The notes under the pieces were generated by a model, which was not told where the DNA came from, searched no databases, and was given only the letters and a program-made list of their open reading frames with translations. From the NCBI RefSeq assembly GCF_003667545.1, contig NZ_RCUV01000003.1:62001-126000 (forward strand): a stretch of DNA of 64,000 nucleotides, written 5' to 3'. This DNA is from Mycetocola manganoxydans (lineage in GTDB: Bacteria > Actinomycetota > Actinomycetes > Actinomycetales > Microbacteriaceae). This document shows, piece after piece, positions 19,479 to 40,229 of the stretch (position 1 is its first letter; every line of letters begins with the position of its first letter). A program made the translations under genes and the position numbers.

Positions 19479-19549
19479 GTCCGCCAGTTTAGCGATGCAC
19501 GGTTGCGGGCAGCGAATACCCGTATGATGCCGCGCCGCGCACAACGAAA

Positions 19550-20893: not shown

Positions 20894-22387
20894 TCAGTCG
20901 TGCTCGGGGAATCCGAGGTTGATTCCACCGTGGCTCGGGTCGAGCCACCGGCTGGTCACCGCCTTCTCACGCGTGAAGAACTCGACACCGTGCGGCCCGT
21001 ACGCCTTCGCGTCGCCGAACATCGAGTTCTTCCAGCCACCGAACGAGTGGTACGCGACCGGGACAGGGATCGGCACGTTGATGCCGACCATGCCCACGGT
21101 GACCTCACGCTGGAACCGCCGTGCTGCCCCACCGTCGTTCGTGAAGATGGCGGTGCCGTTGCCGTATTGGCTGTCGTTGATGATGCCGAGTCCTTCGGCG
21201 TAGCTCGACACCCGCACCACCGAAAGGATCGGACCGAAGATCTCGTCGCTGTAGACGGTCGACGATGTCGGCACATTGTCGATGAGTGTCGGGCCGAACC
21301 AGAAGCCGCCCTCGTCACCGTCGACCTCAGGGTTCCGTCCGTCGACCACGACGGTGGCGCCATCCGCTGTCGCAACGTCGACGTATGAGGCGACCTTGTC
21401 TCGGTGCACCTCCGTGATCAGGGGGCCCATGTCACAGCCGCGGCGTCCGTCTCCCGTCTTGAGCGACGACATCCGTTCCGTGATGCGGGCGACGAGGTCG
21501 TCGGCGATGGTGTCGACGGCGAGCAGCACGCTGATCGCCATGCACCGCTCCCCCGCCGAACCGAAACCGGCGTTGACGGCAGCGTCTGCGGCGAGGTCGA
21601 GGTCGGCGTCCGGCAGCACGAGCATGTGGTTCTTCGCCCCGCCGAGCGCCTGGACACGTTTGCCGTGGTGGGCCGCGGTCTCGTAGATGTAGCGGGCGAT
21701 CGGCGTCGACCCGACGAACGAGATCGACTGGACGACGGGATGCTCGAGCAGGGCATCGACGGCTTCCTTGTCGCCGTGCACGACATTGAACACACCGTCG
21801 GGGAGCCCCGCTTCCGTGAGCAGTTCGGCCATCCAGATGGCAGCCGACGGGTCCTTCTCACTCGGCTTCAGCACGACCGTGTTACCCGCAGCGATTGCAA
21901 TCGGGAAGAACCACAGCGGAACCATGGCCGGGAAGTTGAACGGGCTGATGATGCCGACAACACCGAGCGCCTGCTTGAGGGTGTAGACGTCGACGCCGGT
22001 GGAGACGTTCTCCGAGTACTCACCCTTGAGCAGGTGCGGGATGCCGGTGGCGAAGTCCACGACTTCGAGGCCGCGCGCGATCTCCCCGCCGGCATCCGAC
22101 AGAACTTTGCCGTGCTCGGAGGTGAGGATCTCGGCGAGTTCACCCTTGCGGGAGTTCAGCAGCTCACGGAAGTTGAAGAGGACGGCCTGCCGCTTCGACA
22201 GGGAGGCGTCGCTCCACGCCGGGAAGGCGGCGGCCGCTGCCTGGACAGCGCTGTCGACGTCGGCAACGCTGCCGAGGCGGACCTCTTTCTCGACGACCCC
22301 GGTCGCCGGGTTGAACACGGGGGCTGTGCGTGACGAGTCCCCTTCGGCTGCCGATCCACCGATGAAGTGGTTGATGTATGTGGTCAT
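20894..22387 (-). CDS. mmsA: CoA-acylating methylmalonate/malonate-semialdehyde dehydrogenase
   Basis: A 497-residue aldehyde dehydrogenase. The active-site Cys282 lies in GSAGERCMAIS, the form typical of MmsA enzymes, which oxidise (methyl)malonate semialdehyde to acetyl- or propionyl-CoA without an added Glu base. Cofactor segment NTVVLKPSEKDPSA (169-182) and FVGSTPIARYIY are also typical. In this operon it would finish uracil or thymine breakdown after beta-alanine (or beta-aminoisobutyrate) transamination. The ATG overlaps the aminotransferase stop (ATGA), and a strong terminator follows the gene. Confidence 0.9.
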   Translation of the reverse strand: MTTYINHFIGGSAAEGDSSRTAPVFNPATGVVEKEVRLGSVADVDSAVQAAAAAFPAWSDASLSKRQAVLFNFRELLNSRKGELAEILTSEHGKVLSDAGGEIARGLEVVDFATGIPHLLKGEYSENVSTGVDVYTLKQALGVVGIISPFNFPAMVPLWFFPIAIAAGNTVVLKPSEKDPSAAIWMAELLTEAGLPDGVFNVVHGDKEAVDALLEHPVVQSISFVGSTPIARYIYETAAHHGKRVQALGGAKNHMLVLPDADLDLAADAAVNAGFGSAGERCMAISVLLAVDTIADDLVARITERMSSLKTGDGRRGCDMGPLITEVHRDKVASYVDVATADGATVVVDGRNPEVDGDEGGFWFGPTLIDNVPTSSTVYSDEIFGPILSVVRVSSYAEGLGIINDSQYGNGTAIFTNDGGAARRFQREVTVGMVGINVPIPVPVAYHSFGGWKNSMFGDAKAYGPHGVEFFTREKAVTSRWLDPSHGGINLGFPEHD

Positions 22388-23712
22388 GCGTGTCCTCCCT
22401 GGACGGTGGTGAAGACGGCGTCGTAGGCGGCCAGGGCCTCGGCTACCTCGTCGTCGGTGACGGTGCACGGCGGCACCACGTGGATTCTGTTGTCCTGCAC
22501 GAACGGCAGCAGGCCGCGCCCGACGAGGGCTGCCTTGATCTGTCCCATGGTCGCCGCCGGCAGCGGCTCGCGTGTGGCCCGATCGGCGACCAGCTCCATC
22601 GCCCAGAACACGCCCTCGCCGCGCACTTCGCCGATGACGTCGTGCTTGTCGGCGAGATTGGCGAGGCCGGGGCCGATCGCCTCACGGCCGACCCGCGCCG
22701 CGTTGTCGACGATTCCCTCGCCGGCCATCGCATCGAGCGCGCCGATGATCGACGCCATGGCGAGCGGATGCCCCGAGTAGGTCAGCCCGCCCGGGAACAC
22801 CGTTTCGTCGAAATCGGCGGCGATCGGGTCGGAGATGACGACGCCGCCTGCGGGGACGTAGCCGGAGTTGACCCCCTTCGCGAAGGTGATGAGGTCGGGA
22901 ACGACGTCGTACCCGTCGAAAGCGAACCAGCGCCCGGTGCGACCGAACCCGGCCATCACCTCGTCGAGGATGAGCACGATGCCATACCGGTCGCACAGGG
23001 CTCGGACCCCGGCGAGATACCCGGGCGGCGGCACGAGGATGCCTGCGGTTCCCGGAACGGTCTCGAGCATGATGGCAGCGATGGTCGCTGCGCCCTCACC
23101 CTGGATGACCCGCTCGAGGTGATGCAGTGCGCGCTCCGTCTCCTGTTCAGGCGTCGTCGCCCAGAACTCAGAGCGGTACAGGTATGGGCCGAAGAAATGC
23201 ACGTGCCCGCGCGCGTATTCGTTGGGCATCCGGCGCCAGTCCCCGGTCGCGACGATGGCAGCACCGGTGTTGCCATGGTACGAACGGTAGGTCGAGAGGA
23301 CTTTGTCGCGTCCGGTGTGGAGGCGAGCCATCCGGATCGCGTTCTCGTTGGCATCCGCACCGCCGTTGGTGAAGAAGACCTTGTTGAAGCCGTCTGGAGC
23401 GCGATCGGTGATGCGTTTCGCCGCTTCTCCCCTGGTCAGGTTTGCCGTCGACGGCGCGATGGTGGTGAGCAGGTCTGCCTGTTCCTTGATCGCCGCGATG
23501 ACGGCCGGATGCTGGTGACCGATATTCACATTCACCAGCTGGCTGGAGAAGTCGAGGTACTCCGTGCCCTCGAAGTCCCACACTCTCGTTCCGAGACCAC
23601 CGGCGATGACCAGGGGTTTGAGCGAACCCTGCGCTGACCAGGAATGAAAGACGTGGGCGCGGTCGAGGTCGAGTGTGTGCTGATTGCTGTCTGACGTGAG
23701 CGGAAGTGCCAC
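22384..23712 (-). CDS. Class III PLP aminotransferase, probable beta-alanine:2-oxo acid transaminase
   Basis: A 442-residue PLP enzyme with LILDEVMAGFGRTG (248-260, the cofactor Asp250) and the Schiff-base Lys279 in ITFAKGVNSG. Omega-transaminases of this group move the amino group of beta-alanine, GABA or similar to pyruvate or 2-oxoglutarate. Operon position between the importer and the semialdehyde dehydrogenase, behind dihydropyrimidinase and ureidopropionase, argues for beta-alanine/beta-aminoisobutyrate as substrate. Start is GTG with AAAGGAG upstream. A hairpin separates it from the binding-protein gene. Confidence 0.88.
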   Translation of the reverse strand: MALPLTSDSNQHTLDLDRAHVFHSWSAQGSLKPLVIAGGLGTRVWDFEGTEYLDFSSQLVNVNIGHQHPAVIAAIKEQADLLTTIAPSTANLTRGEAAKRITDRAPDGFNKVFFTNGGADANENAIRMARLHTGRDKVLSTYRSYHGNTGAAIVATGDWRRMPNEYARGHVHFFGPYLYRSEFWATTPEQETERALHHLERVIQGEGAATIAAIMLETVPGTAGILVPPPGYLAGVRALCDRYGIVLILDEVMAGFGRTGRWFAFDGYDVVPDLITFAKGVNSGYVPAGGVVISDPIAADFDETVFPGGLTYSGHPLAMASIIGALDAMAGEGIVDNAARVGREAIGPGLANLADKHDVIGEVRGEGVFWAMELVADRATREPLPAATMGQIKAALVGRGLLPFVQDNRIHVVPPCTVTDDEVAEALAAYDAVFTTVQGGHA

Positions 23713-23745
23713 GACATCTCCTTTGTTGCGTGTTACCGATGGGAT

Positions 23746-23778
23746 CCCGGGTGGACGGACGGTGTCCGCCCACCCGGG
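23746..23778 (-). terminator. Hairpin between importer binding protein and aminotransferase
   Basis: Arms CCCGGGTGG and CCACCCGGG with an inner CGGAC/GTCCG pairing around GGT; seven bases after the binding-protein stop. It could end most transcripts here, leaving reduced read-through into the aminotransferase and dehydrogenase genes, or stabilise the 3' end. Confidence 0.65.
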
Positions 23779-23784
23779 GGGGAA

Positions 23785-24942
23785 CTACTGGCCGCCCTCG
23801 TTGAGGGTGACCTCGATGGGTTCGAAGTTCTCGCCCGTCACGTCGACGCCCTCTTCCTCCAGTGCGTCGAGGGCCTGCTGGATGTAGTCGTTCGTCCAGA
23901 CGCCGGCCGGCGGCTCCTCGGTGATGAGGGCCGCGCCACTTTCGTTGACGGCGGAGAGCGCGCCGGCGACGGTACGTTCGAACGCTGCCTGGTCGATGAA
24001 GCCGATGCCGTTCTCAGCCGGCCAGATGAGCTTGTTCGTTTCGTTCACCATCCACAGTTCGTGGCTGGGGCCCCAGCCGGAACCCTCGGCGAGTGTGATC
24101 TCGGCAGCGTCCTCCGGGTTCTCCGCCGCGAAGATCCAGCCCTTGATCACGGCTTTGAGGAACGAGACGGTGGTGTCCTGGTAGTCCTCGTCGTTCTCGA
24201 GCTTCTCCGAGTCGGCCCAGATGGCATCCTGCAGCATCGCGCCGACGGTGTCTTCGTAGCTGATGACGTTGAAGTCGTCCTCGGTGTAGAGCTCGCCCGT
24301 GTCAGGGTCCACGGTCTCGAGCAGCTGCGCGTATTCGTTGTACGTCATCGCCTGCGCCGCGTCGATATCACCCTGCAGGAACGCGTTCATGTTGAAGTCC
24401 TGAGTGATGATCTCGACCGTGGAGGAGTCGAGACCCTCTTCGGCCATGGCGGCGAAGATCTCCCACTCGTTTCCGAAGCCCCACGAGCCGATCTTCTTGC
24501 CCTCGAAGTCGGCGACGCTTTCGATGCCCGAGTCGGCCCACGACACCTGAAGGGTCCCTGACCTCTGGAAGATCTGCGCGATGTTGGTGACGTTCGCGCC
24601 GGCCTCAATCGAGCCGAGGACCTTGGGAACCCACGCGATGGCGTAGTCGACGTCTCCGTTGGCGAGTGCGTCCTGAGGAACGATGTCACCTCCGGACGGG
24701 ATGATTTCGACGTCGAGGCCCTCCTCTTCGAAGTAGCCCTGGTCGAGCGCGGCGAAATAGCCGGCGAACTGTCCCTGCGGCAGCCACTGCAACTGCAGTT
24801 TCACCTCGGTGAGTTCGTCGTCGCCCCCGCCGGTGTTCGATCCTGTCCCGGAGTCGGCTGGTCCTGAACATGCGGAGAGTACGAGCGCTGCCGAGACGGC
24901 AAGCGCACCAACCGTCGCGAAGCGACGTGTGCTGTGTTTCAT
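23785..24942 (-). CDS. ABC transporter substrate-binding lipoprotein (NMT1/THI5-like)
   Basis: A 385-residue lipoprotein with lipobox VLSACS (Cys25). The fold is the SsuA/THI5/NMT1 type, seen in KLQLQWLPQGQFAGYFAALD (about 48-67), a segment shared with binding proteins for pyrimidine-like and other heterocyclic ligands. It serves the two permeases and ATPase upstream. In this operon the ligand is probably a pyrimidine, dihydropyrimidine or hydantoin (inference). The start at 24942 has AAAGGAC upstream and begins the signal peptide; a much longer in-frame extension crosses the permease gene and is rejected. Confidence 0.88.
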   Translation of the reverse strand: MKHSTRRFATVGALAVSAALVLSACSGPADSGTGSNTGGGDDELTEVKLQLQWLPQGQFAGYFAALDQGYFEEEGLDVEIIPSGGDIVPQDALANGDVDYAIAWVPKVLGSIEAGANVTNIAQIFQRSGTLQVSWADSGIESVADFEGKKIGSWGFGNEWEIFAAMAEEGLDSSTVEIITQDFNMNAFLQGDIDAAQAMTYNEYAQLLETVDPDTGELYTEDDFNVISYEDTVGAMLQDAIWADSEKLENDEDYQDTTVSFLKAVIKGWIFAAENPEDAAEITLAEGSGWGPSHELWMVNETNKLIWPAENGIGFIDQAAFERTVAGALSAVNESGAALITEEPPAGVWTNDYIQQALDALEEEGVDVTGENFEPIEVTLNEGGQ

Positions 24943-25001
24943 GGTCTGTCCTTTCATGCGTGCGTGGGGTTTGACCGTCGGTCCGGGCGGACCGGGGACA
25001 T

Positions 25002-25802
25002 TCATGTGCGCTGCCTGCCGCGGGTTGCGAGGCGTTCCAGAGCGAGGGTGGCGAGGAAGAAGATCAGTCCGAGGGCGATCGACGCGAGCACGTATGCCCA
25101 CGCCCTGGGGTAGGCGCTCGACGCGGCGGAGGTCGAGATGAGACCGCCGAGCCCACCGCGCGGGCCACCGAAGTATTCGGCGACGAGAGCGGAAATCACC
25201 GCGAGTGACGAGGCGATGCGGATGCCGGTGAAGACGAACGGGACGGCCGTCGGCAGCGTCACGGTGCGAACGATCTGCCCGGATGACGCGGCGTAGACCT
25301 TCATGAGGTCGCGGTGCACAGGAAGGGTTTGCCGAAATCCGCGGAGCGTGTTGATGAAGACGGGCACGAACGACGCGAGACCGGCGATCGCCTGCCGCCC
25401 GAACTGGCTGTCCGCCCCGAACATCGAGTTCAGCACCGGGGCGAGGGCGACGATCGGGATGACGGCGAGAGACGCGACGATGGGCGCGCTCATCTGGTCG
25501 ATCGGGCGCCAGCCGGCCGCAAGAGCAGCCAGCAGGATGCCGAGAATCGAGCCGATCACGAGGCCAAGCAGCGCGTTCAGTCCTGTGATCATCGTCGCTG
25601 AGACCATCGACGGGAAGAACTCGACGAACTGTTCCACGATCGCAGCGGGACTCGGCAGGAGGTAATCGCTGACGCCGACGACGCTCACGAGGAACTGCCA
25701 CACTCCGAGCACGAGCACGCCGACGGCGACAGGGGCGACGATCCGGAGTGTCGTGTCTCTTTTCGCGGAGGGGGCCGAGCGGCCCGAAAGCGTCAGGGCC
25801 AT
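25002..25802 (-). CDS. ABC transporter permease B of the pyrimidine/hydantoin operon
   Basis: A 266-residue SsuC/TauC-type permease with about six hydrophobic segments and the coupling loop DLMKVYAASSGQIVRTVTLP (about 165-184). It is the second permease of the importer; the first is at 26647-27567. Two different permeases suggest a heterodimeric channel. Its ATG shares one base with the ATPase stop (TGATG). Confidence 0.9.
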   Translation of the reverse strand: MALTLSGRSAPSAKRDTTLRIVAPVAVGVLVLGVWQFLVSVVGVSDYLLPSPAAIVEQFVEFFPSMVSATMITGLNALLGLVIGSILGILLAALAAGWRPIDQMSAPIVASLAVIPIVALAPVLNSMFGADSQFGRQAIAGLASFVPVFINTLRGFRQTLPVHRDLMKVYAASSGQIVRTVTLPTAVPFVFTGIRIASSLAVISALVAEYFGGPRGGLGGLISTSAASSAYPRAWAYVLASIALGLIFFLATLALERLATRGRQRT

Positions 25803-26650
25803 CAGCGGTTCTCCACTCCCCGCGCCCCTGTGGGAACGGGAGATCCGGTGTGCAGGGCTTCGCGCACCGCGGTGACTCCATCGAAGAACGCCCGTTCCTC
25901 ACGGAGCGCCTCGGCGTGAGCCGGATCCCGGTTGAGACCCATCGGGACGATCTCCTGGATGCGGCCCGGTCGCGGCGACATGACGACGACACGGTCGGAG
26001 AGGTAGACCGCCTCGGGGATCGAGTGGGTGACGAACACGACGGCCGCGCCGGTTTCGGCGCAGATCCGCAGCAACTCGGTCTGCATCCGTTCCCTCGTCA
26101 TTTCGTCGAGCGCACCGAACGGTTCGTCCATGAGCAACAGGTCAGGCTTCTCGGCGAGCGCTCGAGCGATAGCGACGCGCTGCTGCATGCCGCCCGAGAG
26201 CTGGTCGGGATACCGATCGGCGAAGTCGCTCAGCCCGACCATGTCGAGGAGTTCACCGACCCGCGCGGTCCGGTCACGACCGGATGCCCCGTGGAGCTCG
26301 AGCGGGAGCCCGACGTTCGCCGCGACGGTTCGCCAGGGGAGCAGACCGGCCTGCTGGAATGCGATGCCATAGTCCTGGTCGAGCCGCGCCTGCTTCGCCG
26401 ACTTTCCGAAGACCGTCACCGTTCCCGCTGTCGGCTGGTCGAGGTCGGCGATGAGCCGCATCAGGGTGGATTTTCCGCAGCCGGACGGGCCGATGAGTGA
26501 GATGAACTCCCCCGCCGAGACAGTGAGGTCGATCCCGGTGAGCGCGTCAACCTGTCCCGAGCGGGTATCGAAGGTCTTGTCGACACCCGTCACGGTGACG
26601 GCGTCGACCGTGCGGGTCGGTGCAACTGGGGTTTCGGGTAGCTGAGTCAC
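25802..26650 (-). CDS. ABC transporter ATP-binding protein of the pyrimidine/hydantoin operon
   Basis: A 282-residue ATPase of the SsuB/TauB group. Walker A is GPSGCGKS, the signature is LSGGMQQR, Walker B is LLLMDEPFGALD and the H-loop FVTHS. It energises the importer made with the two flanking permeases and the NMT1-like lipoprotein. The GTG start at 26650 is chosen because it overlaps the permease stop (GTGA) as elsewhere in this operon; an in-frame ATG 105 bases upstream lies inside the permease gene. Confidence 0.92.
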   Translation of the reverse strand: MTQLPETPVAPTRTVDAVTVTGVDKTFDTRSGQVDALTGIDLTVSAGEFISLIGPSGCGKSTLMRLIADLDQPTAGTVTVFGKSAKQARLDQDYGIAFQQAGLLPWRTVAANVGLPLELHGASGRDRTARVGELLDMVGLSDFADRYPDQLSGGMQQRVAIARALAEKPDLLLMDEPFGALDEMTRERMQTELLRICAETGAAVVFVTHSIPEAVYLSDRVVVMSPRPGRIQEIVPMGLNRDPAHAEALREERAFFDGVTAVREALHTGSPVPTGARGVENR

Positions 26651-27567
26651 GCGTTGATCTCCACACGTCGGTAGTTCCTGAGGATGGCGCCGAGGATGGC
26701 GACCGAGCCTGCCGCTGCCAGGCCGAGCACGATGGAACCGAAAATGGGTCCCCATGCCTTGGACGGATCACCGCTGGCCTGGCCGGCGTACTGGATGAGG
26801 ATGCGCCCGATTCCGCCCTGCATTCCCGTCGAGACTTCGGCGACGACGGCACCGATGACGGCGTTCGCAGCGCCGAGGCGAAGGGCGGGGAGCAGGTACG
26901 GGATGGATGCGGGGATCCGCAGCTTGACGAGCGTCTTCCACCAGCCGACCCCGTAAGTTCTCATGAGTTCGGTGTGGATGGTGTCTGGCGACTGAAGTCC
27001 CTTGAGAGCGCCGACAGCGATCGGGAAGAACGCGAGGTACGACGCGATCACCGCGACGCTCATCCAGTCCTGCCATTCGAACGCACCGATCTCGATGCGT
27101 GACCCCCAGCTGCGAACGACCGGAGCGAATGCGATGAGCGGAACGGTCTGGCTGAGGATGATCCAGGGCAGGAGACCCCATTCCGCGAGTCGCCACCGCT
27201 GCATGATCAACGCGAGCGCGAAGCCGACGACGATGCCGACAAGCCAGCCGACGGCAGCGATCCCGAGCGTGACGAGCGCGGCGAGCGCCACTTCGAGCCA
27301 CAGCGGGTTCGCCGTCGCCGAGCGGGTGACCGGGTCGAACAGCCTGGCGATCATGTCCCAGGTGTGGGGCATCGCGAGATCGGTGGTGCGCGGAAGGATC
27401 CGGGCATCGCCGATCACGACTCCGTCGGACGGACCGAGCAACTTGTAGAGCTCCCACGCCGCCGCAAGGACGAGAATGCCGAGCACCCCGTACGCCCAGC
27501 GCGCCAGCTCCCTGGCGGGCGCACCACGGCGCCGCCGGATCGCCGGGGCCAGGGTTTCGGCGGTCAT
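26647..27567 (-). CDS. ABC transporter permease A of the pyrimidine/hydantoin operon
   Basis: A 306-residue permease, SsuC-like, with an N-terminal basic stretch, about six to seven hydrophobic segments and a coupling loop around LMRTYGVGWWKTLVKLRIP (about 208-226). The start at 27567 overlaps the stop of the LLM oxidoreductase (ATGA), tying the transporter and the catabolic enzymes into one transcript. Confidence 0.9.
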   Translation of the reverse strand: MTAETLAPAIRRRRGAPARELARWAYGVLGILVLAAAWELYKLLGPSDGVVIGDARILPRTTDLAMPHTWDMIARLFDPVTRSATANPLWLEVALAALVTLGIAAVGWLVGIVVGFALALIMQRWRLAEWGLLPWIILSQTVPLIAFAPVVRSWGSRIEIGAFEWQDWMSVAVIASYLAFFPIAVGALKGLQSPDTIHTELMRTYGVGWWKTLVKLRIPASIPYLLPALRLGAANAVIGAVVAEVSTGMQGGIGRILIQYAGQASGDPSKAWGPIFGSIVLGLAAAGSVAILGAILRNYRRVEINA

Positions 27568-28580
27568 GCCGTCGCCACGATCTTTTCCCGGAGCGCTGGA
27601 ATCACGGCCTCGCCGTAGACCCGCAGCGTTTCTTCCTTGTTGTCGTGCTGGAGGTACCCGGCGAACTGGTCGACGCCGATGCTCTTCAGCTCTTCGAGCT
27701 TGGCGATGTGCTCGCTCGCCGTGCCCATCACGCAGAACCGCTCGACGATCTCGTCCGGAACGAAGGCAGCGTGGGTGTTGCCGGCCTTGCCGTGCTCGTT
27801 GTAGTCGTACGACTCCCGGCCCTGGATGTAATCGGTGAGGGCCTGGGGGATCGCCCCTCCCGTTCCGTATTTGGCGACGATGTCGGCGACGTGGTTGCCG
27901 ACCATGCCCCCGAACCACCGGCACTGGTCGCGCATGTGCTCCCAGTCGTCGCCGATGTACATGGGCGCCGCGACGCAGAATTTGATCGACATCGGATCGC
28001 GTCCCGCCTGCTCCGCGGCATCCCGAACCGTCTTGATCATCCATTTGGCGATGTCGACGTCGGCGAGCTGCAGGATGAAGCCGTCGCCGACCTCACCCGT
28101 CAGTTTGAGGGCGAGCGGCCCGTATGCCGCCACCCATACGTCGAGTTTCGACCCGACGCTCCACGGGAACTGCACGGTCGCACCGTTGTACTCCACCGGC
28201 CGGGAGTTGCCGAGTTCGCGAATGACGTGGATCGATTCGCGCAGCGTCTTGAGCGTCGTCGGTGCGCCGTTGGTGGTGCGGACCGCGGAGTCTCCCCGTC
28301 CGATGCCGCAGATCGTGCGGTTTCCATACATCTCGTTGAGGGTGGCGTAGGTGGATGCCGTCACCGTCCAGTCCCTGGTGGCCGGATTAGTGACCATGGG
28401 GCCGACGGTGATCCTCTTCGTTTCGTTGAGGATCTGGCTGTAGATGACATACGGTTCCTGCCACAACAAATGAGAGTCGAACGTCCACACGTGACTGAAA
28501 CCGTATTGCTCGGCGAGCTTGGCGAGGTGGACGGTTCTCGAGGCGGGCGGGTTGGTCTGGATTACTGCTCCGAAGTCCAT
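27564..28580 (-). CDS. LLM-class F420-dependent oxidoreductase (CPS_4043-like) in pyrimidine operon
   Basis: A 338-residue TIM-barrel enzyme of the luciferase-like superfamily, close in pattern to methylenetetrahydromethanopterin-reductase-type F420 proteins. Segments are MDFGAVIQTNPPASRTV, HVWTFDSHLLWQEPYV (about 30-45), GIGRGDSAVRT (about 92-102, phosphate binding) and VWVAAYGPLALKLTGEVGDG (about 149-168). It sits 8 bases after dihydropyrimidinase and overlaps the permease gene, so it belongs to the pathway. No dihydropyrimidine dehydrogenase gene is present, and this enzyme could supply that reduction using F420H2. An FMN-dependent monooxygenase role is the alternative. Start at 28580 chosen by family length. 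Confidence 0.85.
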   Translation of the reverse strand: MDFGAVIQTNPPASRTVHLAKLAEQYGFSHVWTFDSHLLWQEPYVIYSQILNETKRITVGPMVTNPATRDWTVTASTYATLNEMYGNRTICGIGRGDSAVRTTNGAPTTLKTLRESIHVIRELGNSRPVEYNGATVQFPWSVGSKLDVWVAAYGPLALKLTGEVGDGFILQLADVDIAKWMIKTVRDAAEQAGRDPMSIKFCVAAPMYIGDDWEHMRDQCRWFGGMVGNHVADIVAKYGTGGAIPQALTDYIQGRESYDYNEHGKAGNTHAAFVPDEIVERFCVMGTASEHIAKLEELKSIGVDQFAGYLQHDNKEETLRVYGEAVIPALREKIVATA

Positions 28581-28588
28581 GGATGCCC

Positions 28589-30022
28589 TTAGATCAGGTA
28601 CTGGCTGAGGCCGCGGTGGACGTACTTGCCGTCGCCCTTGGTGCCCAGGTACTGGTTGTCGTCGACGATGACCTTGCCGCGGGAGAGCACGGTGTCGACG
28701 TGGCCGTCGATCTCGTATCCTTCCCAGGCGGAGTAGTCCATGTTCATGTGGTGCGTCTTGCCCACTCCGATGGACGTGTGGCCGTTGGGGTCGTAGATGA
28801 CGACGTCGCCATCCGCGCCCGGCTGGAGCACACCCTTCTTTCCGTACATACCGAACATGCGGGCCGGAGTGGTGGAGGTGATCTCGACCCAGCGTTCGAG
28901 CGAGATCTTCTTGTCTACGACGCCCTGGTAGAGCAGGTCCATCCGGTGTTCGACACTCCCGATCCCGTTGGGAATCTTGGAGAAGTCCCCGATTCCCATG
29001 TCTTTCTGCCCCTTCATGCAGAACGGACAGTGGTCGGTGGACACCATCTGGATGTCGTTCGTACGCAGGCTCTGCCACATGTGGTGCTGGTGCCCTTCGT
29101 GCTTGGATCGAAGCGGCGTCGAGCACACCCATTTGGCGCCCTCGAAGTCTCCCCACTCCTCGCTCGATGCACCGAGCTGGTCTTCGAGTGAGAGGTACAG
29201 GTACTGCGGGCAGGTCTCCCCGAACACGTTCTGGCCGTTGTCCCTCGCCTGGGCGATCTGCTCGACGGCTTGCTTGGCGCTGACGTGAACGACGTACAGG
29301 GGAGCACCGGTCAGGTTGGCCAGCATGATGGCCCGGTGAGTTGCTTCTTCTTCTGCCTGCCAGGGCCGCGTCATGCCGTGATAGTACGGCGTGGTGTTTC
29401 CGGCCTGGAGTGATTGCTGCACGAGGAGGTCGATGACGCTTCCGTTCTCGGCGTGCATCATGATCATCGAGCCGTTGTCGCTCGCGCGCTGCATGGCCTT
29501 GACGATCTGTCCGTCGTCGGAGAGGAACACACCCTTGTAGGCCATGAAAAGCTTGAAGCTCGACACTCCCTCGCGAACGAGTTCGTCCATCGCCGTCAGT
29601 GACGAATCCTGAACGTCGCTGAGGATCTGGTGGAACCCGTAGTCGATCGCGCAATTGCTGCGCGCCTTCTCGTGCCAGAGCGAGAACTGGTCGAGCACGT
29701 TCTCGCCGGCGTACTGCACGACGAAGTCGACGATGCTCGTCGTTCCGCCGTGCGCGGCGGCGCGGGTTCCGGTCTCGAAGGTGTCGCTCGCGAAAGTGCC
29801 GCCGAACGGCATCTCCATGTGGGTGTGTGCGTCGATCCCGCCGGGGATGACGTACTTGCCGGCAGCGTCGATCACGGAGTCGACATTGTTCTCGACGTCG
29901 AATCCGAGCAGGGTCGACCCGGGGGCGAGCACGGCGGCGATGGTTTCACCGTCGATGAGCACATCGGCCGGGGCTGAGCCGGTCGAGTTCACGACGGTGC
30001 CGTTCTTGATGAGGGTTTTCAT
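28589..30022 (-). CDS. hydA: Dihydropyrimidinase / D-hydantoinase
   Basis: A 477-residue zinc hydrolase of the amidohydrolase superfamily that opens dihydrouracil or dihydrothymine to the N-carbamoyl beta-amino acid; many also open hydantoins. The metal site is visible as DAHTHMEMPFGG (His66 and His68) and the SFKLFMAYK segment (155-163) with the carboxylated Lys. MMHAENG and VVHVSAK give the other His ligands, and STDHCPF the Asp region. It follows the ureidopropionase by 26 bases and precedes the LLM gene by 8. Confidence 0.95.
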   Translation of the reverse strand: MKTLIKNGTVVNSTGSAPADVLIDGETIAAVLAPGSTLLGFDVENNVDSVIDAAGKYVIPGGIDAHTHMEMPFGGTFASDTFETGTRAAAHGGTTSIVDFVVQYAGENVLDQFSLWHEKARSNCAIDYGFHQILSDVQDSSLTAMDELVREGVSSFKLFMAYKGVFLSDDGQIVKAMQRASDNGSMIMMHAENGSVIDLLVQQSLQAGNTTPYYHGMTRPWQAEEEATHRAIMLANLTGAPLYVVHVSAKQAVEQIAQARDNGQNVFGETCPQYLYLSLEDQLGASSEEWGDFEGAKWVCSTPLRSKHEGHQHHMWQSLRTNDIQMVSTDHCPFCMKGQKDMGIGDFSKIPNGIGSVEHRMDLLYQGVVDKKISLERWVEITSTTPARMFGMYGKKGVLQPGADGDVVIYDPNGHTSIGVGKTHHMNMDYSAWEGYEIDGHVDTVLSRGKVIVDDNQYLGTKGDGKYVHRGLSQYLI

Positions 30023-30048
30023 GGTTTTCCTCTCTCGGTACCGACCGG

Positions 30049-30897
30049 CTATGGCTTGGGGATCGACGTGTAGGACTCCGGGCGACGGTCACGGTAGAAC
30101 TGCCAGTCGTCGCGGACTTTCTTGATCATGTCGAGGTCGAGGTCGCGGATGACGATGTCCTCGTGTTCCGAACTGCCGCGTTCGCCGACGAAGTTCCCCT
30201 GGGGGTCTGCGAACTGGCTCGTGCCGTAGAACGTGACAGCGAGGTCGCCGTATTCGTTGTCCTCGGTACCGACGCGGTTCGGCGCGGCGACGAAGTAGCC
30301 GTTTGCGGCTGCGGCCGTCGCCTGTTCGAGGTCCCACAGCCTGTTGGAGAGGCCCGGCTTCGTGGCGTTCGGGTTGAAGACGATCTGGGCACCGTTGAGT
30401 CCGAGTTCACGCCAGCCCTCCGGGAAATGGCGGTCGTAACAGATGTAGACGCCGACGGGGCCGACAGCGGTGTCGAACACCGGGTAACCCATGTTCCCCG
30501 GGCGGAAGTAGAACTTCTCGTAGAACTTTTCGAGGTGGGGGATGTGGTGCTTGCGGTACTTGCCGAGGATGGTTCCGTCGTTGTCGACGACGACGGCGGT
30601 GTTGTAATACACGCCGGGCATGTCTTCCTCATAGATGGGAAGAACCATCACGAGGTTGAGTTCCTTCGCGAGCTTCGCGAAGCGCTGGACGATGGGGCCA
30701 TCGGCCGGTTCTGCGAACTCGTAGTACTTCTTGTCTTCGGTGATCCCGAAGTATGGGCCGTAGAACAGCTCCTGGAAGCAAATGATCTGCGCTCCCTGAG
30801 CAGCAGCGTCCCGAGCGAACTGTTCGTGTTTCGCGATCATGGATTCTTTGTCGCCGGTCCAGGTTGTCTGGGTGATTGCGGCGCGAACTACCGTCAT
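30049..30897 (-). CDS. Carbon-nitrogen hydrolase, probable beta-ureidopropionase
   Basis: A 282-residue nitrilase-superfamily amidohydrolase expected to split N-carbamoyl-beta-alanine to beta-alanine, CO2 and NH3. The catalytic triad is visible: Glu43 (CFQELFYGP), Lys116 (KYRKHHIP) and Cys153 (YICYDRHFPEG). The start at 30897 is set by GGAGG six bases upstream; an ATG seven codons earlier lies before this site and is less likely. It is the first gene of the operon, divergent from the MocR-type regulator. The 28-32-kDa size matches bacterial PydC-like enzymes. Confidence 0.88.
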   Translation of the reverse strand: MTVVRAAITQTTWTGDKESMIAKHEQFARDAAAQGAQIICFQELFYGPYFGITEDKKYYEFAEPADGPIVQRFAKLAKELNLVMVLPIYEEDMPGVYYNTAVVVDNDGTILGKYRKHHIPHLEKFYEKFYFRPGNMGYPVFDTAVGPVGVYICYDRHFPEGWRELGLNGAQIVFNPNATKPGLSNRLWDLEQATAAAANGYFVAAPNRVGTEDNEYGDLAVTFYGTSQFADPQGNFVGERGSSEHEDIVIRDLDLDMIKKVRDDWQFYRDRRPESYTSIPKP

Positions 30898-30984: not shown

Positions 30985-31091
30985 ACTGTTTTACTGTTCC
31001 GCTCATTTGTTATTATTTGAGTTGAACATTTCTCTATTGTTTCCCTTCGTGACGCGTGAGTAAATACCCAGTTTGGGCGGAAGGCCGACTT

Positions 31092-32426
31092 ATGGATCTG
31101 GCGTACGGGGAGATCATCGACGACCGCTCCCCCCGGGGGATCGCGGCGGCCATCGCGAGACTCATCACCGCGGGGACCCTCGCACCGGGCGACCGGCTGC
31201 CGACGGTGCGTGAACTCGGGGCTGAGCTCGGCGTCAGCCCCGCGACCGTCAGCCAGGCCTGGCAGGCAATGGGCAGCGTCGGGCTCATCGTTTCGAAGGG
31301 CCGCAGCGGGAGCTTCGTCCGATCAGCGCCGGTTCCGTGGCTGACACCGCGGGTGCAGTCGATGGCCGGGCACCTCGGTGACGCGAGACTCGATCTCTCC
31401 CGCGGAGCACCGGACCCGCTCCTGCTGCCTGACCTCACCCTGGCTCTCTCCCGGGTATCCGAGTACGCGGGAACGTTCAGCTATCAGGAACTGCCGGTGA
31501 TTCCGCCGCTGCTGAAACACCTGCAGGATGTGTGGCCGTACGACGTCGAGGCGATCACGGTCGTCGACGGCGCACTCGACGGGCTCTCCCGCTCGCTCGA
31601 GCAGGTCATCCGGTTCGGTGACCGGGTCATCGTCGAGGACCCGACCTTCCCCCCGTTCTTCGACCTGCTGGACCAGCTCGGCGCCGTACGCATCCCGGTT
31701 CCCGTGGACGCACACGGGCTCGATCCCGCTGCGCTTCGCCAGGCCCTGAAGCTGGGCCCCGCAGCACTCCTCCTTCAGCCGCGGGCCCAGAACCCGACGG
31801 GAATATCGATGAGCGTCGAACGCGGAGAGGAACTCGCCCGCATCATCGCCGCCAGTCGGCAGGCGAGCGGGCTCATCGTGATCGAGGACGACCACTCAGC
31901 GGGGATCAGTGCGTCGACAGAGATCAGCCTCGGCCGGTGGATCCCCGAACGAGTGCTTCACATCCGCAGTTATTCGAAGTCACACGGACCCGACCTGCGG
32001 ATCGCAGCCCTCGGTGGACCCGAGGCCCTCATCAACCAGGTCGTTGCCCGCCGGATGCTCGGCCCTGGGTGGACCAGCAGAATGGTGCAGACGATCCTCG
32101 TCGAGCTCCTCACCAACTCCGATGCCATGAGCACCGTCGCTGCCGCGAGGAGCGTCTACTACTCGCGTCAGCGCATGTTCGCCGAAGCCATGCGCGACAC
32201 CGGCCGGGCGGTTGCCGAGACGGACGGCCTCAATACCTGGGTCGAAGTCGACGACGAACGCCACGCCCTCGTCCAGCTGGCGGCATCCGGCATCCGGGTG
32301 ACCGGCGGAACTCCCTACCTGTCGGCGCCGGGTGACCGCCAGTTCGTCAGGGTCACCGTCGGGATGCTCCGCGAGGGTCACGCGGACGTCGCGGCCGCGC
32401 TCGCGACCGTCGCTCCCGGACGCTGA
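31092..32426 (+). CDS. MocR/GabR-type regulator (GntR helix-turn-helix fused to aminotransferase fold)
   Basis: A 444-residue regulator: GntR winged helix (about 1-75, LPTVRELGAELGVSPATVSQAW) joined to a fold-type-I PLP domain with QNPTG (about 233-237), IEDDHSAG and the Schiff-base Lys296 in RSYSKSHGPDLR. MocR proteins use PLP to sense amino compounds such as GABA or beta-alanine instead of catalysing. Being divergent from the pyrimidine operon, whose pathway yields beta-alanine, it is the likely pathway-specific regulator. ATG at 31092 is chosen for GGAAGG upstream; a GTG at 31056 is possible. Confidence 0.88.
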   Translation: MDLAYGEIIDDRSPRGIAAAIARLITAGTLAPGDRLPTVRELGAELGVSPATVSQAWQAMGSVGLIVSKGRSGSFVRSAPVPWLTPRVQSMAGHLGDARLDLSRGAPDPLLLPDLTLALSRVSEYAGTFSYQELPVIPPLLKHLQDVWPYDVEAITVVDGALDGLSRSLEQVIRFGDRVIVEDPTFPPFFDLLDQLGAVRIPVPVDAHGLDPAALRQALKLGPAALLLQPRAQNPTGISMSVERGEELARIIAASRQASGLIVIEDDHSAGISASTEISLGRWIPERVLHIRSYSKSHGPDLRIAALGGPEALINQVVARRMLGPGWTSRMVQTILVELLTNSDAMSTVAAARSVYYSRQRMFAEAMRDTGRAVAETDGLNTWVEVDDERHALVQLAASGIRVTGGTPYLSAPGDRQFVRVTVGMLREGHADVAAALATVAPGR

Positions 32427-35378: not shown

Positions 35379-35505
35379 CACCACGGGTGTACTCTCGAAC
35401 CTGACCACCGGTCGGTTGTGACCGGGTGAGCTTGCCCGGATTTGGGTGGCAGGTCGTACCGCATTCCGCGCTGCACCGTGCCCGCTTCTCCCTATCCGAG
35501 GCCTC
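35379..35505 (+). promoter_or_regulatory. Structured leader upstream of the F420-0 importer
   Basis: The 127-base gap holds two overlapping hairpins in competition: CCGGTC (35408-35413) with GACCGG (35420-35425), and CCGGG (35422-35426) with CCCGG (35435-35439). Ribosome site GAGG lies just before the ATG at 35506. No known riboswitch core (for example the cobalamin box) is recognisable. It could be an attenuator or the terminator of the preceding exporter operon. Confidence 0.35.
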
Positions 35506-36519
35506 ATGACTTCCCGCTCCCCCTTCACCGCCCGTCGCATCCTCCCCCGTCGCGTCCTCGCGGCGGCCGGTCTTCTCACCGGCCTTGCCGCCCTGACCGG
35601 GTGCACCGCCGCTCCGGTCCCTGAGCCAAGCGACTCGCGCGAGCCGACGGCATCCGCGTACCCGCTCACCATCGACAATTGCGGCACCGAGCTCACGATC
35701 GAGAAGGCGCCTGAGCGCGTGCTGACGATCAAGTCGACGTCGACGGAGATGATGCTGGCGCTCGGTCTCGAGGACCGGCTCATCGGTCACGCGTTCCCCG
35801 ACGGCCCGATCCCTGACGAGCTGGGCGGTGAGGACGTCCCGGTGATCAGCGACAAGGTGCCGGGCCAGGAAGCGGTTCTGACGCTCGAACCAGACTTCAT
35901 CTTCGCGGGCTGGGAGTCCAACTTCTCGGCGGACGGCGCAGGGGATCGTGACTCCCTCGCTGAGCTCGGAGTGAACACCTACGTGTCACCCGCCGCCTGC
36001 CAGTCGGCCGAGAAGCCGGCCGAGCTGAGGTTTGAGGACGTCTTCGACCAGATCGCCGAGGTGGGCTCGATCTTCGGCGCTGACGAAGAGGCCACTGCGC
36101 TTATCGCCGAGCAGCGGACGGCGCTGGGCGAACTGACCGCAGCCGCCGGAACCACTGCGCTCTGGTACTCGAGCGGCTCGGATACCCCGTTCGTCGGCGC
36201 CGGCGCCGGCGCCCCGCAGATGATCATGGACGCCATCGGGATCGAGAACATCGCCGCAGGGGTGAATGAATCCTGGACCTCGTTCAACTGGGAGGCCGTC
36301 GTCGATGCGAACCCGGATGTCATCATCCTCGTCGAGTCGGACTGGGGCACCGCTGAGAAGAAGATCGGCGTCCTGCGGTCGAACCCGGCAACGGCGAAGC
36401 TCGACGCCGTCGTGAACGAACGCTTCATCACCGTTCCGTTCGCAGCGACGGAGGCCGGCGTTCGCAATGTCGAGGCGGCACAGATCATCGCTGAGCAGCT
36501 GGAGGCGCTCGGATTGTGA
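35506..36519 (+). CDS. Putative coenzyme F420-0 ABC transporter, substrate-binding lipoprotein
   Basis: A 337-residue lipoprotein (lipobox ALTGCT) of the FecB/BtuF class III binding-protein family, with the two-lobe fold joined by a helix. Segments PERVLTIKSTSTEMMLALGL (about 66-85) and EPDFIFAGWESNF (about 127-139) are typical of the small actinobacterial group predicted to bind F420-0. Cassette order (binding protein, permease, ATPase) and the convergent cofE and F420-dependent oxidoreductase support this over a B12 or siderophore role. The start at 35506 has GAGG upstream; an in-frame ATG at 35446 would add a non-signal extension. The ligand is a bioinformatic proposal, not proven. Confidence 0.8.
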   Translation: MTSRSPFTARRILPRRVLAAAGLLTGLAALTGCTAAPVPEPSDSREPTASAYPLTIDNCGTELTIEKAPERVLTIKSTSTEMMLALGLEDRLIGHAFPDGPIPDELGGEDVPVISDKVPGQEAVLTLEPDFIFAGWESNFSADGAGDRDSLAELGVNTYVSPAACQSAEKPAELRFEDVFDQIAEVGSIFGADEEATALIAEQRTALGELTAAAGTTALWYSSGSDTPFVGAGAGAPQMIMDAIGIENIAAGVNESWTSFNWEAVVDANPDVIILVESDWGTAEKKIGVLRSNPATAKLDAVVNERFITVPFAATEAGVRNVEAAQIIAEQLEALGL

Positions 36520-37595
36520 CGGCGACGATGACGACGCGGCCGGCCGAAGCGGCATCCGCCCGGCGGGAACGCCGGCGCGTGCCCACCGTCGTGCTCGTTC
36601 TCGTGCTCTCCGGAATCCTGCTGCTCTCCATCGTGCTCAGCGTCACCCTCGGCCCGGCAGACATTCGCCCCGCCGAGGTGTGGGGGTCGCTCCTCGGCCA
36701 TCTGGGCTTCGACCCGACGCTTCTCGGCGGGGACGTCCTGTCGCCACTGCGCGACGGCATCATCTGGGAACTGCGGATGCCACGGATCCTCACCGCCGCC
36801 GCGGTGGGCGCCGGTCTCGCCCTCTCCGGTACCGTCATGCAGGCGATCACGCGTAATCCACTCGCCGACCCGTACCTGCTCGGGCTGTCGTCCGGAGCGT
36901 CGCTCGGCGCTGTCGCGGTCATCCTGCTCAGCGTCGGTGTCCTTCTTCCCGTCGCGGCATTTGCCGGCGCCATCGTCGCGTTGCTTGCAACCCTCCTTCT
37001 CGCCGGTGCCGCCGGCGCACTGACGCCGACCCGTACCGTTCTTGCCGGCCTCGCCGTGTCGTCGTTCCTCGGCGCCCTGACGAGCCTCGTCATCTTCTGG
37101 TCTGCGACAGGCGACACCTACCGCGAAATCCTCAGCTGGCTGCTCGGCTCCCTGAGCGGAGCACGCTGGCCCGCCGTCGCGATTGCGCTCGGAGCGTTGC
37201 TGCTCGTTGGAATTCCGCTCATGCTCACCGGCCGGACGCTCGACGCGTTCGCCTTCGGCGACAATGCGGCATCCGCTCTCGGTGTCGGGGTGAACTCAAC
37301 CCGGTGGCTGCTGCTCAGCGCGACGGCGTTGCTCACCGGCGCGATGGTCTCGGTCTCGGGTTCGATCGGTTTCGTCGGGCTGATCCTGCCGCACGCTGTG
37401 CGGCTCGTGGCGGGGCAGCGGAACCGCGTCGTGCTCCCCCTGTCTGCGCTCGCCGGGGCCATCTTCCTGATCTGGATCGACACCGGTGCCCGCACCCTGT
37501 TCGACCCGCGCGAGTTGCCCGTCGGTATTCTCACCGCCGTCGTTGGAGCTCCCGTGTTCGCTCTGCTGTTGCTGAAGGCCAGGAGGATCCGATGA
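36516..37595 (+). CDS. Putative coenzyme F420-0 ABC transporter, permease
   Basis: A 359-residue FecCD/BtuC-type permease with about nine to ten hydrophobic segments. Typical marks are LRMPRILTAAAVGAGLALSG (about 87-106), MQAITRNPLADPYLLGLSSGAS (split, about 109-130) and GSIGFVGLILPHAVR (about 286-300). It forms the import channel with the binding protein and ATPase. GTG start overlaps the binding-protein stop (GTGA); the next gene overlaps its stop (ATGA), so all three are coupled. Confidence 0.85.
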   Translation: MTATMTTRPAEAASARRERRRVPTVVLVLVLSGILLLSIVLSVTLGPADIRPAEVWGSLLGHLGFDPTLLGGDVLSPLRDGIIWELRMPRILTAAAVGAGLALSGTVMQAITRNPLADPYLLGLSSGASLGAVAVILLSVGVLLPVAAFAGAIVALLATLLLAGAAGALTPTRTVLAGLAVSSFLGALTSLVIFWSATGDTYREILSWLLGSLSGARWPAVAIALGALLLVGIPLMLTGRTLDAFAFGDNAASALGVGVNSTRWLLLSATALLTGAMVSVSGSIGFVGLILPHAVRLVAGQRNRVVLPLSALAGAIFLIWIDTGARTLFDPRELPVGILTAVVGAPVFALLLLKARRIR

Positions 37596-38422
37596 CGACG
37601 ACAAACCCGTCCGCCGACATCGTCGACGCTCTGTCCGCGCCCGGGCAGGACTCTCTCAGCGCGAGCAGGTTGACCTTCACGCGCGAGGGAAAGCTTGTCA
37701 TCGATGGCGTCGACGTCTCCCTGCCTGTCGGATCGTTCGGTGCGGTGATCGGTCCGAACGGCGCGGGGAAGTCGACGCTCCTCCAGTTGCTCGTCGGTAC
37801 CCTTCCCGCGGATTCCGGTGCCGTGCTGTTCGACGGCGACGATCTGCTCGCGATGAAGCGGCGCGACCGGGCGCGGCTCGTCGCCCTGAGCGAGCAGCAC
37901 GGCGACGGTGACACCGGGCTCCTGGTGACCGATGTGGTGCTGCTCGGCAGGACCCCGCACATCCCCAGGTGGGCGTCAGAGGGGCCGGCGGACCGGCGGG
38001 TCGTTGCCGATGCGTTGACCGCTGTGGGCATGACGGAGTTCTCGAACCGCCCGTTCGACACCCTCTCCGGCGGGGAACGCCAACGGGTGCAGCTCGCTCG
38101 CGCCCTCGCCCAGGAGCCCAGGCTGTTGCTCCTCGACGAACCGACCAACCACCTCGACGTGCGCGCCCAGCTCAGCCTGCTGTCGCTCGTCCGTGCTCAG
38201 ACAGCGGCGGGGCTGACCGCGCTCGCGGCACTCCACGACCTCAACATTGCGGCTGCGTACGCCGATTCCGTGATCGTGCTGAAGGCGGGTGCCGTCGTCG
38301 CTGCCGGGCCGGCGGCATCCGTTCTCACCGGTGACCTGATCAGCGACGTCTATGGCGTGCGGGCCGATGTGCTCGAGCACCCGCGAACAGGGCGTCCCCT
38401 GATCGCTTTCGACACGACCTAG
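37592..38422 (+). CDS. Putative coenzyme F420-0 ABC transporter, ATP-binding protein
   Basis: A 276-residue FecE/BtuD-type ATPase: Walker A GPNGAGKS (about 52-59), signature LSGGERQR, Walker [13 protein letters not shown] and the H-loop ALHDLN. The ATG at 37592 has AGGAGG upstream and overlaps the permease stop. Its final four bases overlap the convergent cofE gene. Together with the two preceding genes it makes a complete class II importer; F420-0 is the proposed cargo from gene context. Confidence 0.85.
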
Positions 38423-39174
38423 AGTGACTGTCCCGCGCCCGCCGTGAATCCTGCGGCGTATGCCTCGTCCGAGCCGAGCCGGAACATGTCCTTCTCAGCG
38501 CTGCGGACGAGCGCTCGGGCGCCTGGCCCATCCTCGTCTGTGACGAGGTGCGCGAGACCTCGGACGACGGCGACCGGGCGACCGGACGCCTTCCCCTTGA
38601 CCAGGTCCGCGGCTCCGGCGAGTTCGTCGGCGACTGCGGTGATGGTGACGGTGAGCGGGCGACCGGACGCATCCGTCTGTCCTCGCAGGTCGTCGACGAC
38701 ACGGATGCCGGCGGCCCCGATCGCGATGTCGGTCTGCCCTTCCCGCCATGGGCGGCCAACGGTGTCGGTGATCACGATGCCCACACGGAGGCCGATGGTG
38801 CTGCGCACTGCCGAGCGGAGCGCGCGCGCTGAGGCGTCCGGGTCCACCGGCAGCAGGAGAACGGTGCCCTCGTCGGTGTTGCTCGAGTCGACGCCCGCAG
38901 CGGCCATGACGAGACCGAGCCGGTTCTCGACGATCCGGGTGACACCGTTCGGATGCTCACGACTGGCGACCACGCGAACGGTTTCGTCGGTAATCGCCTG
39001 TTCCCGGTCGGCGGCGAGGATGCGTCGCCCCTCGGCCTTCGACACGATCTTGGACGTGATGAGGAGAATGTCTCCGTCCTCGAGGTCCGGGCCGACGGCA
39101 TCCGTCACGATTCTCGCCAGGTCGTCGCCTGCGGTGATCTCGCCTATTCCGTCCGGCGCCCAGATCGACAGCAT
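38419..39174 (-). CDS. cofE: Coenzyme F420-0:L-glutamate ligase
   Basis: A 251-residue GTP-dependent ligase that adds gamma-linked glutamate residues to F420-0, the last step of F420 synthesis. Family segments include [18 protein letters not shown] (about 32-49), [29 protein letters not shown] (about 77-105) and [23 protein letters not shown] (about 130-152). It lacks the C-terminal nitroreductase-like domain of mycobacterial FbiB (about 450 residues), so it is the archaeal-type single-domain form. Coupled to the F420-dependent oxidoreductase upstream by TGATG, and convergent with the putative F420-0 importer. Confidence 0.92.
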
Positions 39175-40175: not shown

Positions 40176-40229
40176 CCCCCCATCCTTGCGCACACTGTGC
40201 TGTCGCCGGGGTCGGATAGCGTTGAGTCC

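Follow-up and report, generated by a model that had tools for sequence, protein, structure and literature searches.

The window analysed here is a stretch of 64,000 nucleotides from Mycetocola manganoxydans (Microbacteriaceae; assembly GCF_003667545.1, contig NZ_RCUV01000003.1, positions 62,001 to 126,000), whose reference genome (G000) comprises 3.06 Mb in 32 contigs and is 99.99% complete. Nine minus-strand genes running from position 30897 to 20894 form an operon encoding, in this order, a carbon-nitrogen hydrolase, a dihydropyrimidinase (HydA), an LLM-class oxidoreductase of family TIGR03842, an ABC permease, an ABC ATPase, a second permease, a substrate-binding protein, a class III (omega) aminotransferase and a (methyl)malonate-semialdehyde dehydrogenase (MMSDH). 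Here we propose that the LLM protein probably reduces uracil and thymine with F420H2 as donor, and that it has no relationship to dihydropyrimidine dehydrogenase.

Gene content of the operon

The LLM gene (27564..28580, on the minus strand like the other eight) encodes a protein scoring 590.2 bits against TIGR03842 (cut-off 295.45), with a match that spans the whole model (positions 1-329 of 329) and closest relatives among the Microbacteriaceae. It lies eight bases after hydA (28589..30022; TIGR02033, 546.9 bits, cut-off 393.25) and overlaps the gene for the first permease (26647..27567; PF00528) by four bases, and thus it is built into the operon. Overlaps of four bases also join the first permease to the ATPase (25802..26650; PF00005), and the aminotransferase to MMSDH. 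Eight of the nine genes were read through and are open throughout; the second permease (25002..25802; PF00528) was taken from the list of open reading frames.

By family, the steps downstream of uracil reduction appear to be covered by HydA, the carbon-nitrogen hydrolase, the aminotransferase and MMSDH. The closest solved chains to HydA, the candidate for the second step, are 3sfw, named as a dihydropyrimidinase (5e-143), and 1yny, named as a D-hydantoinase (8e-142). The carbon-nitrogen hydrolase (30049..30897; PF00795), proposed for the third step, is beta-ureidopropionase-like: its solved relatives are CG3027 (1.3e-56), the beta-ureidopropionases 8pt4 and 6ftq (2.3e-53 and 2.7e-53) and the N-carbamoylputrescine amidohydrolase 5h8i (8e-53), its score against the N-carbamoylputrescine amidase model falls below the cut-off (251.6 versus 410.25), and its NCBIfam matches include no curated beta-ureidopropionase model. 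The putative beta-alanine/3-aminoisobutyrate aminotransferase (22384..23712; PF00202) scores 749.4 bits against NF004718 (cut-off 472), a subfamily whose only name is 'hypothetical protein', and the CoA-acylating MMSDH (20894..22387) scores 679 bits against TIGR01722 (cut-off 448.5). The substrate-binding protein of the importer (23785..24942; PF09084) is of the NMT1/THI5 type, with solved relatives that include 4nmy (an unnamed substrate-binding protein), 3ix1 (a formylaminopyrimidine-binding protein) and THI5 (4h65).

The original prediction, made from the letters of the window, had read these genes as every step of reductive uracil and thymine breakdown except the first, with the LLM gene eight bases after the dihydropyrimidinase and overlapping the permease. 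Family scores and coordinates agree with it in content and placement, the carbon-nitrogen hydrolase being beta-ureidopropionase-like only. It had also proposed searching the genome for preTA or pydA, the presence of which would count against it. We found no match to PreA (NF006183) in the genome at E 1e-60, and a PreA encoded elsewhere in it is accordingly rejected; the single DHO_dh-family gene lies on a contig other than the operon's. An oxidative start of the RutA type is likewise rejected, as the best match to RutA in the genome reaches 80.7 bits against a cut-off of 498.3 and none lies above it (the barbiturase route was outside the search). Thus the absence of the usual first enzyme holds genome-wide.

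The LLM gene and its partners in other genomes

Two sets of loci were compared: a near set, made up of the LLM protein's 80 closest relatives retained from named genomes, and a phylum set, drawn from the 62 of 296 sampled phylum genomes that encode a TIGR03842 protein over the cut-off and comprising 60 of those loci (G237 was omitted and G000 is the window itself). Across the near set, the LLM gene is accompanied by HydA at 79 of 80 loci, the carbon-nitrogen hydrolase at 78, the aminotransferase at 71, the substrate-binding protein at 58 and MMSDH at 28, and hydA is co-oriented with it and no more than 300 bases away at 78. The association persists across the phylum set, where HydA is found at 45 of the 60 loci, HydA or the hydrolase at 48, and at least one of HydA, the hydrolase, the aminotransferase and the substrate-binding protein at 54. 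Neither preA nor preT was found beside the LLM gene at any of these 140 loci (80 near and 60 phylum).

The LLM gene is constant while its partners vary. It occurs with a carbon-nitrogen hydrolase and an ABC importer in the window, with an M20-type carbamoylase and an NCS1 permease at a locus of the f18 lineage (L139), where HydA and a class III aminotransferase are also encoded, and with a Zn-dependent hydrolase and an NCS1 symporter in Leisingera. The NCS1 permease encoded at L139 is accepted by the general NCS1 model and also matches the allantoin permease, below that cut-off. A Streptomyces plasmid carries the carbon-nitrogen hydrolase, aminotransferase, hydA and LLM genes together. Two further loci stand apart. 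One, from a Rhodococcus sp. (L193), has no HydA match in its stretch; the other, titled as an Acidobacteria metagenome-assembled genome (L075), encodes an LLM protein 83% identical to that of the window, with carbon-nitrogen hydrolase, HydA, aminotransferase and MocR matches as in Microbacteriaceae, and is for this reason probably a mislabelled or contaminant contig.

A plasmid of Leisingera caerulea (NZ_CP081074; L190, L194) encodes cofG, cofH, cofD, cofC, cofE, npdG and the TIGR03842 gene in line; pntA-pntB, the genes for an aminotransferase and a Zn-dependent hydrolase, hydA and the NCS1 symporter gene lie divergently to this run. The LLM and hydA genes are both found on the same ten Leisingera plasmids. 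Like a transferable module, the L. caerulea plasmid unites F420 synthesis, an F420 reductase, a transhydrogenase and pyrimidine catabolic genes. Paracoccus alcaliphilus shares the cof-npdG-LLM run, there with an ABC transporter behind it and no hydA in the stretches read.

Operons that contain PreTA resemble these LLM operons with the first enzyme exchanged. In Cytobacillus spongiae, a carbon-nitrogen hydrolase, a PreT-like protein, PreA, HydA, an NCS1 transporter, a PucR regulator, MMSDH and an aminotransferase are encoded together, and in Burkholderia multivorans and Roseinatronobacter a PreT-like protein and PreA lie beside a Zn-dependent hydrolase and HydA (PreT was called in these operons by 33-35% identity). 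The Roseinatronobacter region (L198) also contains an ABC importer related to that of the window (ATPase 55% and substrate-binding protein 36% identical), and a Sinorhizobium region has HydA and a related ABC importer with neither PreTA nor an LLM gene in view. Within the phylum itself, G208 carries a hydA-preA-preT arrangement; PreA was found in two of the 296 genomes (G191 and G208), neither of which has an LLM protein over the cut-off, and such rarity leaves mutual exclusion of LLM and PreA beyond statistical testing there. Nine plasmid regions around HydA, hand-chosen from 60 listed records and read for 6 kb on each side (one ends at its record end), contained PreTA in three cases, an LLM gene in none and neither in six, so that HydA alone is not diagnostic.

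A tree of 34 hand-chosen HydA sequences places the LLM-linked HydA of Leisingera with the PreTA-linked HydA of Roseinatronobacter (98/98, in a group that also includes Sulfitobacter and Sinorhizobium) and that of Burkholderia (100/100), and apart from the LLM-linked HydAs of actinobacteria. The LLM label requires four changes on this tree, two of which are forced by well-supported branches. Thus the LLM gene has been joined to more than one HydA lineage.

F420 supply and the fold of the LLM protein

About 4.5 kb from the start of the operon, on the plus strand, begin the genes of a putative F420-0 ABC importer: a binding protein (35446..36519; TIGR03868, 425.1 bits, cut-off 392.4), a permease (36516..37595; TIGR03869, 484.7 bits, cut-off 437.35) and an ATPase (37592..38422, its start inferred), whose best NCBIfam match, TIGR03873, scores 347 bits, below the cut-off of 372.4. 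These three families are named 'putative F420-0' transporters in NCBIfam; the idea of F420-0 import is itself not new. The protein families at issue here were reportedly defined by Selengut and Haft in 2010. Adjoining the importer is a minus-strand gene for CofE, the F420-0:L-glutamate ligase (38419..39174; TIGR01916, 243.6 over 180.65; NF009810, 311.5 over 304), and Fgd (697 bits) is encoded elsewhere on the same contig. CofD and CofH have no match in the genome (CofC and CofG were outside the search), and M. manganoxydans is thus an apparent F420 salvager. A second LLM gene, over the TIGR03557 cut-off, adjoins cofE in an open reading frame at 39174-41003 (minus strand); the match covers only residues 282-607, and the real start probably lies about 280 codons in.

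CofD is found in 155 of the 296 phylum genomes and has a match in 57 of the 62 that are LLM-positive, that of G195 being in pieces (Fisher P = 2e-12 when G195 is scored as negative; this P value and the next are descriptive). The family sample of 110 genomes includes 52 with the LLM protein, 45 with CofD over the cut-off and two with CofD in pieces, and 31 with the importer binding protein over the cut-off. CofD or the importer occurs in all 52 LLM-positive genomes of this sample and in seven of the other 58 (P = 5e-24). Eleven of the LLM-positive genomes lack CofD, and these have the importer over the cut-off in ten cases and in two pieces in the eleventh (G317), no CofH over the cut-off, and CofE over the cut-off in 11 of 11. 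In the near set, CofD or the importer permease falls inside the fetched stretch at 52 of 80 loci.

The distribution of CofH in the family sample bears on what the importer carries. Of the 52 LLM-positive genomes, 21 have a CofH match (all at E 6e-43 or below, with six passing the curated cut-off). The importer does not reach its own cut-off in any of these 21, although G372 shows a weaker match to it. Another 29 encode the importer but lack CofH, as do G317 and G344, where the importer is in pieces; an 18.8-bit CofH match in G336 was left out of the count. Across the family sample, none of the 31 genomes with CofH has the importer, which is found in both CofD-positive and CofD-negative genomes. 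This distribution suggests a point of difference from the named families: the importer may carry FO in CofD-positive genomes and F420-0 or F420 in CofD-negative ones. Three CofD-positive, LLM-negative genomes (G311, G322, G348) have neither the importer nor CofH.

The predicted structure of the LLM protein is of middling confidence (mean pLDDT 81.4; the loops at 36-41, 66-68 and 96-105 score low). Its best matches by Z score are Mer (33.5), Adf (29.5), FGD2 (28.0) and FGD1 (27.7), with the first other LLM structure at 25.9; the first 15 rows are all F420 enzymes, and RutA structures score 23.2 to 23.9. Foldseek likewise ranks F420 enzymes in the first 12 places, followed by luciferases mixed with FGD1. 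By fold, then, the protein is an LLM TIM barrel closest to the F420-using members, as in the luciferase-like hydride transferases (LLHT). Mer, an F420-dependent LLM enzyme (PMC11094777), is also the nearest solved relative by sequence, at 24-28% identity. Because the model is middling, our residue map follows the sequence alignment and no pocket was drawn; conservation was counted on 60 distinct homologues under 80% identity. The cis-peptide valine and Asp96 of Mer align with V63 and D97, each of which is kept in 60 of 60 homologues as a matter of residue identity. Where Mer has its catalytic Glu6, the window protein has Val6, while 59 of the 60 homologues carry Val, Thr or Cys and the other has a gap; a role as methylene-tetrahydromethanopterin (H4MPT) reductase is rejected on this ground. 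R101, W140, Y153, W222, F223, N229, H230, D233, Y258-D259-Y260, H263 and C283 are conserved in at least 58 of the 60, and family-specific conserved stretches lie at about 222-238 and 251-263. For Q171 we make no claim, jMer residue 178 being given as Gln in PMC11094777 and the aligned chain having Asn. Taken from sequence comparison and co-occurrence, F420 use by the LLM protein is strongly supported, and the cof-npdG-LLM runs of two Alphaproteobacteria provide a separate line of evidence for it.

Proposed reaction and its alternatives

We suggest that the ABC system would import a pyrimidine and that the LLM protein would deliver hydride from F420H2 to the C6 position of the uracil or thymine ring, with protonation of C5, to give the dihydropyrimidine (substrate, direction and proton donor are all putative). 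By family membership, HydA would open the dihydropyrimidine ring, the carbon-nitrogen hydrolase would release CO2 and NH3, the omega-aminotransferase would yield (methyl)malonate semialdehyde, and MMSDH would convert this to acetyl- or propionyl-CoA. F420H2 could come from Fgd in M. manganoxydans and from NpdG, an NADPH:F420 reductase perhaps fed by the transhydrogenase, in Leisingera, where the genes are present and their roles are assigned by family. As no CofD or CofH match was found in G000, F420-0 or F420 would most likely be taken up through the importer near the operon and finished by CofE. The original prediction of F420H2-dependent uracil/thymine reduction, with the cofactor supplied by an importer some 5 kb away, is thus genomically well supported by gene context and by co-occurrence with F420 genes, the reaction itself remaining a proposal from sequence; the supply is strengthened by the retention of importer and CofE in a genome with no CofD or CofH match, with transport still presumed.

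The proposed LLM chemistry has precedent, since LLM-family enzymes listed in a review of F420 reduce didehydroalanine or act on 4-alkyl-proline intermediates and picrate (PMC8498797). The proposed reaction is the same as that of PreTA/PydA, whose operons likewise include dihydropyrimidinase and carbamoylase and once also an aminotransferase and a semialdehyde dehydrogenase; the LLM protein differs in its unrelated fold, in having no Fe-S or DHO_dh domain, and in its proposed donor, F420H2 rather than NAD(P)H or ferredoxin (PydAc being ferredoxin-dependent; PMC7332683). Two published cases come nearest. One is a putative F420-dependent LLM yanthine reductase encoded in urate clusters of Chloroflexota; this PF00296 protein was proposed from gene neighbourhoods to stand in for a YgfK/UacX-type reductase in reductive nucleobase metabolism, and its substrate is a purine (PMC12507026). 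The other, SSGG-03002/NpsU, is an F420/FMN-type gene associated with reduction of the uracil C5=C6 bond in mureidomycin and napsamycin and required for it in mureidomycins; it belongs to secondary metabolism and acts on a nucleoside peptide (PMC10714638). In the open-licence literature searched, no F420-dependent uracil reductase of pyrimidine catabolism was named among the matches listed, and the name TIGR03842 did not occur. The reductive pyrimidine pathway is known; an LLM protein as its first enzyme would be of a new, unrelated kind.

Several observations weigh against pyrimidine reduction by the LLM protein. Gene context gives a substrate class and not a reaction, and we know of no biochemical or growth data for any TIGR03842 member. 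With Mer's catalytic Glu6 replaced, no proton-donating acid is assigned, and reduction of the uracil ring by SSGG-03002 failed in vitro (PMC10714638). N-carbamoylputrescine amidohydrolase is almost as near to the carbon-nitrogen hydrolase as beta-ureidopropionase is, and D-hydantoinase is nearly as close to HydA as dihydropyrimidinase, the two activities being inseparable by sequence. Six of the 60 phylum loci show none of HydA, the hydrolase, the aminotransferase and the substrate-binding protein; five of these come from fetched stretches no longer than about 10 kb, and the sixth (L157) has an MMSDH match. The HydA of the f18 lineage is only about 42% identical to that of the window, and the carbon-nitrogen hydrolase was not found there. 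Six of the nine plasmid regions have HydA with neither PreTA nor an LLM gene within the stretch read, and for Leisingera the PreTA question covers the plasmid, its chromosomes being outside the search. On the side of F420 supply, four LLM-positive draft genomes besides G000 show no CofD (G119, G160, G173, G259), and the co-occurrence tests ignore shared ancestry. Importer matches of about 200-230 bits, below the cut-off, occur in six LLM-negative genomes of the family and were not counted (counting them gives 13 of 58), whereas the two-piece importer of the LLM-positive G317 was counted as present; CofE was not found in the three of these six that were tested (G309, G328, G345).

An alternative that we consider unlikely, and that the original prediction had itself raised, is that the operon serves to break down hydantoins or some other cyclic ureide, with an F420-dependent LLM protein acting on a different activated bond of the substrate. 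Dihydropyrimidinase and D-hydantoinase belong to a single family and give similar scores with the HydA of the window, HydA stands without PreTA or LLM in the six plasmid regions just mentioned, and the NCS1 permease of L139 has its sub-threshold match to the allantoin permease. Hydantoin breakdown, on the other hand, yields an alpha-amino acid, for which an omega-aminotransferase and MMSDH would be superfluous. Among the three best solved relatives of the carbon-nitrogen hydrolase, two are named beta-ureidopropionase; a PreTA operon has a related ABC importer next to it; and the Leisingera HydA clusters with PreTA-linked HydAs. The beta-amino-acid tail of the pathway and the PreTA-linked importer in particular disfavour hydantoins as the real substrates.

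It is quite improbable that the LLM protein acts at another step, for example in reducing malonate semialdehyde or in oxidizing a product to regenerate F420H2, with uracil reduced by an unrecognized enzyme elsewhere. F420-dependent LLM enzymes do include alcohol and sugar-phosphate dehydrogenases (Adf, Fgd), which are among the nearest folds, and MMSDH is matched at 28 of the 80 near loci. Both MMSDH and the LLM protein are encoded in the window, however, so that a semialdehyde reductase would be unneeded there; judged by gene family, it is the first step for which these operons offer no enzyme; and the NpdG and transhydrogenase genes near the Leisingera LLM gene point to consumption of F420H2. 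Hardly credible is an FMN-dependent, RutA-like monooxygenase acting on the pyrimidine ring without F420, which had likewise been named in the original prediction as a possible outcome: RutA is an LLM protein that binds uracil and shares the fold, and a luciferase stands among the FGD structures in the Foldseek ranking, but the deazaflavin source in 52 of 52 LLM-positive family genomes, the LLM gene that closes the cofGHDCE-npdG runs of Leisingera and Paracoccus, the F420 enzymes filling the top 15 rows by Z and the top 12 by Foldseek with Mer as nearest fold, and a Rut product that would not suit HydA as a substrate all argue for F420.

Returning to F420H2-dependent pyrimidine reduction, we think it fairly likely, though with less assurance than for the window protein itself, that TIGR03842 as a family performs this reaction in both Actinomycetota and Alphaproteobacteria, with the F420 pathway in line on Leisingera plasmids, and that an imported deazaflavin drives pyrimidine catabolism in the window's genus and in several other Microbacteriaceae that lack CofD and CofH. 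If so, a widespread, unnamed family of F420 enzymes (62 of the 296 phylum genomes) would gain a function, uracil reduction would have an independent origin, and F420, which may power pyrimidine recycling in many bacteria, would have a core catabolic role. According to a 2021 review, no F420H2-dependent reductase had been experimentally investigated in bacteria outside the Actinobacteria (PMC8498797). Sharing of F420 between bacteria would also become testable, as eleven family genomes with neither CofD nor CofH over the cut-off keep the LLM protein, CofE and the importer (one in pieces).

Two neighbouring genes complete the picture of the locus. Divergent from the operon, on the plus strand, lies a MocR-like gene (31056..32426) with MocR-family matches, none over the cut-off; it has a match near the LLM gene in 55 of the 80 near relatives and is a possible regulator of the operon. 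About 1.3 kb past the operon end, at 18930-19544 on the minus strand, is a gene over the cut-off for the pyrE (orotate phosphoribosyltransferase) domain.

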